From the NCBI GenBank assembly GCA_904420255.1, contig CAJFUT010000206.1, forward strand, positions 1-8,516: 8,516 nt of DNA, read 5' to 3'. The notes under the pieces were generated by a model. That model worked only from the letters and a program-made list of their open reading frames with translations. It was not told where the DNA came from and did not search any database. Position 1 is the stretch's first letter. Each line of letters begins with the position of its first letter. The stretch comes from an uncultured Angelakisella sp. GTDB taxonomy: Bacteria > Bacillota > Clostridia > Oscillospirales > Ruminococcaceae. The translations under genes were made by a program, and so were the position numbers. Of the stretch, positions 2,175 through 2,770 are shown piece by piece.

Positions 2175-2204
2175 AAAAAGGCACGGACCCTCGCGGCCCG
2201 TGCC
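2175..2204. terminator. Intrinsic terminator of the large non-coding RNA
   Basis: GGCACGGACC (2180-2189) and GGCCCGTGCC (2195-2204) form a 10-bp stem with one mismatch and a 5-nt loop. On the - strand it is followed by TTTTT (2179-2175), which ends the transcript that starts near 2735. On the + strand TTTTT follows at 2208-2212, so it can act in both directions. Confidence 0.88.
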
Positions 2205-2575
2205 CTGTTTTTCGTTATTCACTTTTGGCCCAGATCAAATCTCTCACATTGCTGTTCTTGAAATCCAATCTATGGTCTGCGGTCCTACCGCTTCTTCGCT
2301 TTGCGGCTGCCTGTGTATCCATTGGGAGCTCTGCTCCCATTCCTGCCAGGCTCTCGGCCGGGTCCATCCAGCATGACGGCGTCCGCCGCCTCCCGGAGCC
2401 TTTCTCTCCGCCTGGGTGTGGTGCCCGCCACTGGCGCTGGGCGTTTTATTTCTTCATTGGCATAAGGCAGTCCCGGACTGACGGCAGGTCAGCCCCAAAG
2501 CGCTGCTGGGTAACCGTGTCCACTGGACTCACCTCTTTCTCTCTGAATTTCCTCGCTTGTGGCCTCCTTGGGCCG

Positions 2576-2646
2576 CCTTAGTACATTGGACTGATTTCCT
2601 TTCGCTTTTTCTTCTCAGCCGGGAAAGTCTACCCTAGTACATTGGA
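2576..2646 (-). repeat. Pair of 15-nt direct repeats inside the non-coding RNA
   Basis: On the - strand TCCAATGTACTAGGG (2646-2632) and TCCAATGTACTAAGG (2590-2576) match at 14 of 15 positions, 56 nt apart. Each follows an A/G-rich AAAGG stretch and precedes a short hairpin-forming segment. The shorter core CCAATG occurs five times in the RNA (+ strand CATTGG at 2320, 2455, 2584, 2640 and 2657), far more than chance in about 560 nt. Confidence 0.75.
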
Positions 2647-2741
2647 GTATCCCTTTCATTGGTCCACAGCTCTTGTGCTTTCCGAAACGCCGGTGTTCCG
2701 CGAGGCCCTCGCCTCCTTCGGATTCCTTTGTTTCTGGCTTT

Positions 2742-2770
2742 ATGATACCACAGCTTTTCGGTTTTGTCAA
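2742..2770 (-). promoter_or_regulatory. Strong promoter with UP-like element driving the non-coding RNA
   Basis: On the - strand a perfect TTGACA (2770-2765) is followed after 17 bp by TATCAT (2747-2742), with an extended -10 TG one base upstream. Immediately upstream of the -35, about 2776-2800 is very A/T-rich with A and T tracts (AAAAATTTTTA), like an rRNA-type UP element. Transcription should start near A2735. An inverted repeat, TAGTGG 2825-2830 with CCACTA 2845-2850, lies further upstream. Confidence 0.85.

Follow-up and report, generated by a model that had tools for sequence, protein, structure and literature searches.

The minus strand of the window (the whole 8,516-nucleotide stretch of DNA analysed here, from an uncultured Angelakisella sp.) carries a candidate structured RNA that holds two reading frames of two codons each, both behind a Shine-Dalgarno (SD) sequence. 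Because such SD-led two-codon frames (minigenes) are common to units in 14 genera, they point to an RNA that engages translation rather than to a plain ornate RNA. From sequence comparison, we put at about one half the probability that this is a stand-alone RNA with likely translated two-codon ORFs, which would act by repeated ribosome loading and release and not by coding for a protein. More tentatively, and at somewhat under an even chance, the units may form a new, family-wide bacterial RNA class: a structured stand-alone ribosome trap whose dipeptide cistrons, set out in an array, would adjust translation capacity in trans as ribosomes repeatedly start and at once stop on Met-Tyr-stop frames, and which often adjoins aminoacyl-tRNA synthetase or ribosome genes.

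The earlier note on this DNA had described a unit running from a promoter to a terminator, and this observation was confirmed for the minus strand at 2735-2175, the unit being conserved in two other species. Its features in the window are as follows.

2175 to 2735, minus strand: candidate RNA transcript of ~560 nt, conserved between CAGAAAC and the terminator, with the 5' end placed from the -10 box
2742 to 2770, minus strand: predicted promoter, -35 box TTGACA at 2770-2765 and -10 box TATCAT at 2747-2742, with an A-tract upstream (scan and sequence)
2684 to 2734, minus strand: 5' helix GAAAC (2734-2730)/GUUUC (2688-2684) of the MFE fold, both arms seen in three aligned sequences
2651 to 2656, minus strand: Shine-Dalgarno AAAGGG of minigene 1 (sequence; counted as SD-led)
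2634 to 2642, minus strand: minigene 1, ATG TAC TAG (Met-Tyr-stop), from the pattern search; the stop is TAG in G001 and TAA in G009
2597 to 2602, minus strand: Shine-Dalgarno AAAGGA of minigene 2 (sequence; counted as SD-led)
2578 to 2586, minus strand: minigene 2, ATG TAC TAA (Met-Tyr-stop), from the pattern search
2529 to 2536, minus strand: Shine-Dalgarno AGAGGTGA of the longer micro-ORF, AGAGGTGA in G001 and AGGGGTGA in G009
2446 to 2523, minus strand: micro-ORF of 25 codons with a GTG start, VDTVTQQRFGADLPSVRDCLMPMKK-stop (alignment and ORF search)
2266 to 2505, minus strand: 3' structured core, the basis of model R1 (alignment and covariation)
2266 to 2292, minus strand: invariant 27-nt stretch AGCGGTAGGACCGCAGACCATAGATTG, a hairpin plus tail, identical in three of three species
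2175 to 2204, minus strand: intrinsic terminator (sequence and covarying hairpin)

The near-consensus promoter claimed in the note is present: in the promoter scan, TTGACA and TATCAT, separated by a 17-nt spacer and with the TG of an extended -10 element 5' of the latter, matched 11 of 12 consensus positions, and the scan found 5 promoter-like sites in the whole window versus 1.6 in shuffles. Directly 5' of it lies the A-tract AAAAATTTTTAG; the note had proposed an A/T-rich UP-like element. In the two homologues (G001 and G009) the -35 box is identical and the -10 box reads TATCCT or TATTCT. The proposed intrinsic terminator is likewise in place, with the arms GGCACGGGCC and GGTCCGTGCC at 2204-2180 forming a 10-pair stem followed by TTTTT at 2179-2175; a simple terminator scan did not report this hairpin, which was identified from the sequence, and it is kept in both close homologues with two pairs changed on both sides. 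Because the conserved stretch runs from the predicted start (CAGAAAC) to the terminator, we take the unit to be real. The gene order in the window is rsmI-like, GNAT acetyltransferase, membrane protein (minus strand), the unit (minus strand), rplQ, rpoA, rpsD, rpsK, rpsM and onward to secY, with names assigned by eye except for rplQ (Pfam L17). A strong promoter-like sequence, TTGACA-17-CATAAT (11 of 12 positions), was also seen on the plus strand at 788-816, at the end of rsmI and 5' of the GNAT gene.

A DNA search of 100 relatives returned two strong matches, with 73 and 74% identity over ~400 nt, in other species of the window's genus (Oscillospiraceae bacterium S33_Bin3 and an Angelakisella sp., both MAGs), where the gene neighbours differ from those of the window and between the two homologues; conservation therefore extends beyond close strains. 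Promoter, start, body and terminator could all be aligned across the three sequences, and beyond the strong matches the genus gave short weak ones in G003 and G006. At E 1e-6 the unit was found in 3 of the 10 genomes of the genus; the housekeeping role suggested in the note is unsupported, as the other seven genomes, one of them 97% complete, gave no match at this threshold. The RNA from 2735 to 2185 has a folding energy z score of -2.07, with 0 of 100 shuffles equally stable, and the three-species consensus fold contains 138 pairs, 18 of them with compensatory change, of which 5 lie, implausibly, in promoter columns. Within the 3' core, 7 of 66 pairs are changed on both sides, a count reached by 1 of 500 shuffles, with slid alignments giving 0-1, and covariation here stood above the controls in an alignment of three sequences only. 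Overall, the conservation and the covarying stems support the claim that a structured RNA of ~560 nt has its own transcription unit here. We also noted that the 27 nt of AGCGGTAGGACCGCAGACCATAGATTG are invariant although the three species are otherwise only 73-74% alike; a looser version of this pattern had two matches in the genome collection, both being the known homologues.

The Rfam search that the note had proposed gave zero matches within the unit up to E = 5, the scores in further Rfam scans (E up to 1) all fell well short of the gathering cut-offs, and a gathering scan of 19 related loci found tRNA genes only. OLE, ROOL, GOLLD, raiA and any other Rfam family were rejected, no covariance-model match being found. 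The unit had also been said to lack the signatures of RNase P RNA and tmRNA, and both were rejected here: RF00010 lies elsewhere in four of four genomes tested and had no match in the window, and for tmRNA, ARAGORN reported 0 tRNA or tmRNA genes in L001 (which covers the unit), L024, L025 and L037 and Rfam reported none. A blastn search of 50,697 phage and 72,556 plasmid records for homologues gave zero matches. In viral contigs, which were searched with six patterns, CCAATGTACTAN{30,60}CCAATGTAC and looser forms gave only matches that resembled chance or coding DNA by eye or by model score, two further patterns gave 0 matches, and TAGGANNNNAGACCATAGAT occurred in 5 stretches, one scoring 16 bits over 47 nt.

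Beyond the genus, model R1 recovered from 396 genomes of the family and 394 of the order only the three known members plus two matches near 20 bits, and in 41 relatives it gave further matches of 14-19 bits. Model R2, from the 5' core, scored 22.2 bits (E 0.0013) in one genome among 41 relatives, G021 of another genus, where two tandem units lie 3' of argS, each with promoter- and terminator-like sequences. Two copies of CCAATGTAC are common to the window unit and the G021 units. A gapped pattern matched 8 places in 6 of the 396 family genomes (reversed pattern, 0), among them a ~1.3-kb unit 3' of argS in G017; the match in G296 was discarded as coding DNA from its context by eye. Reading these places side by side revealed that each CCAATGTACTRR sits behind a Shine-Dalgarno sequence and reads ATG-TAC-stop. 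The pattern ASTCCAATGTACTRR then gave 48 places in 39 of the 396 family genomes and in 16 genera, with 0 for the reversed control, and after 3 places (G306, G410 and G396) were dropped by eye as chance matches in coding DNA, 45 places remained, spread over 36 genomes and 14 genera (g1, g9, g13, g16, g19, g26, g30, g87, g91, g96, g112, g114, g138 and g143). At the order level, 115 genomes (6 in the family) gave 3 matches versus 1 for the reversed control, namely G179, already in the set, and two chance-like matches outside the family. Because an exact pattern misses variant forms, failure to match in a given genome says little about absence; each species is represented by a single genome, and many of these assemblies are in pieces (G000 is 81% complete). 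Covariance ties the other genera only weakly to that of the window, and it is chiefly the minigenes and layout in common that connect them. Tandem paralogous units of ~500 nt with the same layout were observed in L037 (430-945 and 1205-1740) and on the minus strand of L050 (G021 and G177). No promoter of its own was visible for the array in G214, no start for the unit in G181 and no end for those in G187 and G101.

The earlier note had seen no protein-like frame in the unit, which stands in that an ordinary protein is lacking but fails for the two SD-led two-codon ORFs and the 25-codon GTG ORF; these micro-ORFs (2642-2634, 2586-2578 and 2523-2446) had been overlooked. At 2642-2634 and at 2586-2578 the window has the complete arrangement of SD, ATG, one sense codon and stop. 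Across the 45 retained places the third codon is TAA in 19, TAG in 13, TGA in 13 and TGG in 0 (Fisher one-sided p = 0.005, uncorrected for relatedness), and with all 48 kept there is one TGG, in G306 (p = 0.013, one-sided and likewise uncorrected). In g91, three minigenes at matching positions in five species swap stop codons and none loses its stop, the series being TAA/TGA/TGA/TGA/TAG at site 1, UAA/UAA/UAG/UGA/UAA at site 2 (AUG UGG) and TGA/TGA/TAA/TGA/TGA at site 3. In g26, the middle minigene is present in five of six species. An SD core lies 4-12 nt 5' of the selected site at 27 of 27 loci examined, versus 577 of 2626 ATGs (22%) in flanking DNA, and its letters vary between sites (AAAGG, GGAGG, GAGG, AGGG).

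With the pattern sites excised and one unit taken per genus, 13 SD-ATG-X-stop frames were left versus a shuffle mean of 1.74 and maximum of 8; 0 of 1000 dinucleotide shuffles reached 13, and the antisense count was 0. Seven of the 14 units supply these 13, which comprise 6 AUG UAC frames, close to the searched motif, and 7 others with the second codons UGC, UGG, UUC (twice), AAC, AAA and AGA; the window contributes 0, as both its minigenes match the search pattern. The density of such frames is 1.11 per kb in the units, whereas 176 kb of flanking strand has 12, or 0.068 per kb; unit limits were set by eye, and those at the ends of G101 and G187 and the start of G181 are arbitrary. Selected sites included, 20 units contain 40 two-codon frames, each unit having between 1 and 6; 200 shuffles gave 2.3 on average and never more than 9, and the antisense strand gave 0. 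In G214 (L148, 3492-4255), six consecutive two-codon frames were seen directly 3' of the gene for the S30AE/HPF hibernation factor.

We propose that the unit would be transcribed as a stand-alone RNA with the minigenes lying between its stems, that 30S subunits would initiate at each SD, and that the ribosome would make fMet-Tyr and then terminate or drop the peptidyl-tRNA. The summed events may act in trans, the RNA being a decoy that draws on free ribosomes, initiator tRNA or Tyr-tRNA; a role in trans is proposed because the window unit includes no protein gene. Against the minigene reading count the presence of only two two-codon sites in the window, the second of them occupied in G009 by a 7-codon frame (MYSKDKE-stop), and the absence of the unit from 7 of the 10 genus genomes at the sensitivity used and of the middle minigene from G390.

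The neighbourhoods of the units were read with Pfam for L17, G197, DUF1292, RuvX and S30AE/HPF and by eye for the others. The argS gene lies 5' of the unit in g9 (four of four species), g13 (G021 and G177), g87 (G101 and G197), G128 of g114 and G319 of g91, and is not directly 5' in G409 (g114) and G105 (g91), as far as these were read. An Asp/Glu racemase gene is found 3' of the unit in G197 (Pfam), G017, G034 and G423, with metG further downstream in G197 (Pfam); DUF1292 adjoins the unit in g16, g138, g96 and g30 and RuvX in g19 (all Pfam), a tRNA cluster lies near the g26 unit (L104 and L107), and rplQ adjoins that of the window. Thirty argS loci were collected and 16 scanned for motifs, and argS of G001 has none within 1.5 kb. 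The neighbours in common suggest that the units were for the most part inherited vertically and changed place in the genus of the window, and the recurrence of argS, metG, the tRNA cluster, L17 and S30AE/HPF suits a link with translation capacity without proving one.

The longer micro-ORF raises the alternative that the unit serves as mRNA for a micropeptide of ~16 residues (of the type MVxEEPVQFxQxGxCR), in which the minigenes only retain ribosomes and protect the transcript in cis. An SD-led ORF of 14-25 codons occurs in at least one unit in 13 of the 14 genera, as this reading would expect, and g112 has one of 10 codons (those of g16, g138 and g96 were read by eye); the peptides include MVIEEPVQFWQDGTCR (g26), MVKEEPKQFGQGGSCR (g91), MKSEEPVQFWQVCAD (g143), MSNTEPVQQWQARGR (g9) and MANFKDPISHRQAWAC (g87), with EEPVQFWQ common to G034 (g26) and g143 and EEPVQF present in g19. 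Stabilisation in cis by minigenes also has a precedent, as proposed for axe-txe and LEE4 (PMC8708949). The codon differences, summed over pairs as synonymous/nonsynonymous, are mixed: 10/7 in g87 favours a peptide, whereas g26 gives 0/12 (0 synonymous and 3-5 nonsynonymous per pair) and g91 5/14, with 2/2 in g143 and none in g9, so that a conserved peptide is not established and there is no clear synonymous excess overall. Further, an ORF search conducted as in the other species did not find the ORF in three of the six g26 species, and in the window's genus both homologues start with ATG, where the window has GTG, and carry the C-terminal half in a different frame. The long structured remainder, ~1.3 kb in G017, would also be left unexplained, and we regard a micropeptide mRNA as unlikely. 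What counts in the longer ORF may be its start, its stop and the inner hairpin, and that the 25-codon GTG ORF of the window is the counterpart of the longer ORF of other genera is our guess.

If the units were instead plain ornate non-coding RNAs in the manner of OLE, ROOL or GOLLD, GGA..UCCAAUGUACURR would be a structural or protein-binding module and the codon reading a coincidence. The stems do covary, the UCCA 5' of the AUG is conserved though translation has no need of it, and the palindromic GUAC of site 1 pairs with that of site 2 in the consensus fold, so these letters could be structural in the window's genus. Such a module would not be expected, however, to vary in its second codon (UAC, UGC, UGG, UUC, AAC, AAA, AGA) while ATG and stop stay constant, or to use TGA, TAG and TAA commonly and TGG once in 48 places, in a match judged to be coding. 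The SD letters vary yet remain complementary to the canonical anti-SD, at the usual spacing, and the unselected two-codon frames are enriched; we therefore consider a plain ornate RNA quite unlikely. Very unlikely, in our view, is a cis leader whose minigenes, as ribosomes pass over them, control read-through into the gene that follows. In its favour, the same strand carries, 3' of the unit, a racemase gene (G017, G034, G423 and G197) or rpe (G432, by eye), and known leader minigenes work in cis (PMC8708949); but a terminator-like hairpin ends the window unit and most units viewed by eye, the next gene in g13 is on the opposite strand, and the downstream genes differ among genera, that of the window encoding an unrelated membrane protein. 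An axe-txe-type cis leader minigene was rejected for the window, where the predicted terminator at 2204-2175 would separate the unit from the next gene.

The reading as a stand-alone RNA with translated minigenes has partial parallels. Lambda bar minigenes are reportedly two-codon ORFs (AUG AUA) in phage transcripts that cause peptidyl-tRNA drop-off, and are said to draw on ribosomes or tRNA in trans when overexpressed. Like them, the frames described here consist of an SD-led AUG, one sense codon and a stop and would act in trans via ribosome or tRNA use; unlike them, they are mostly AUG UAC, number up to six per RNA and lie in a chromosomal structured RNA. RNAIII, a dual-function regulatory RNA of ~0.5 kb with a short ORF, resembles the unit as an RNA of regulatory type and similar size, but the ORFs here are tandem two-codon ones. 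In axe-txe mg2, LEE1 and B. subtilis ycbK, bacterial RNAs naturally carry SD-led minigenes that have two codons or encode a dipeptide; these precede a protein gene and act in cis (PMC8708949), whereas the window unit ends in a terminator and includes no protein gene. According to PMC8708949 and PMC8012679, minigenes can hold ribosomes on an RNA, a strong SD can permit reinitiation without dissociation, how toxic a minigene is depends on its last codon and its stop, and the leader minigenes investigated work in cis. OLE, ROOL and GOLLD are treated in PMC12286853 as large structured RNAs whose function is unknown; tRNA islands are often close to GOLLD and ROOL, and GOLLD is bound by ribosomes in pull-downs. 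The units are likewise large and structured but have no Rfam match and no phage or plasmid match, and minigenes are their recurring feature.

The literature searched, with subscription papers and supplements outside it, gave no account of a stand-alone RNA family built on two-codon minigene arrays or of an RNA class that catches and releases ribosomes in place of making protein; two-codon minigenes have so far been met as toxins in the laboratory, as oddities of phages and in a few leaders. Should translation occur as predicted, these RNAs would spend ribosome initiations without a protein product in members of the family including Angelakisella, and whether an RNA buffers or senses free ribosomes in bacteria would become a directly testable question. 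The units would also carry a warning that a conserved feature of large "non-coding" RNAs can be translation initiation, which ORF callers and Rfam-style searches miss.

Several further frames were observed in the course of this reading. In G001 (L002, minus strand), an extra SD-led CCCATGTACC start lies 5' of site 1 and reads MYLAVSVQTEKWTEERDTPMY, in frame with minigene 1 and terminating at its stop. A 3' micro-ORF, MTPII, MTPIG, MTPKK or MKPII, recurs just 5' of the terminator in L037, L141, L139 and L140 (reversed), and it is preceded by an overlapping ATGAGGCTATGA in the first g13 copy and in G128. In the latter genome (L141, 3700-4150), an internal duplication of ~260 nt was found, each half of which contains one MY-stop and one MF-stop frame (AUG UUC UAG).
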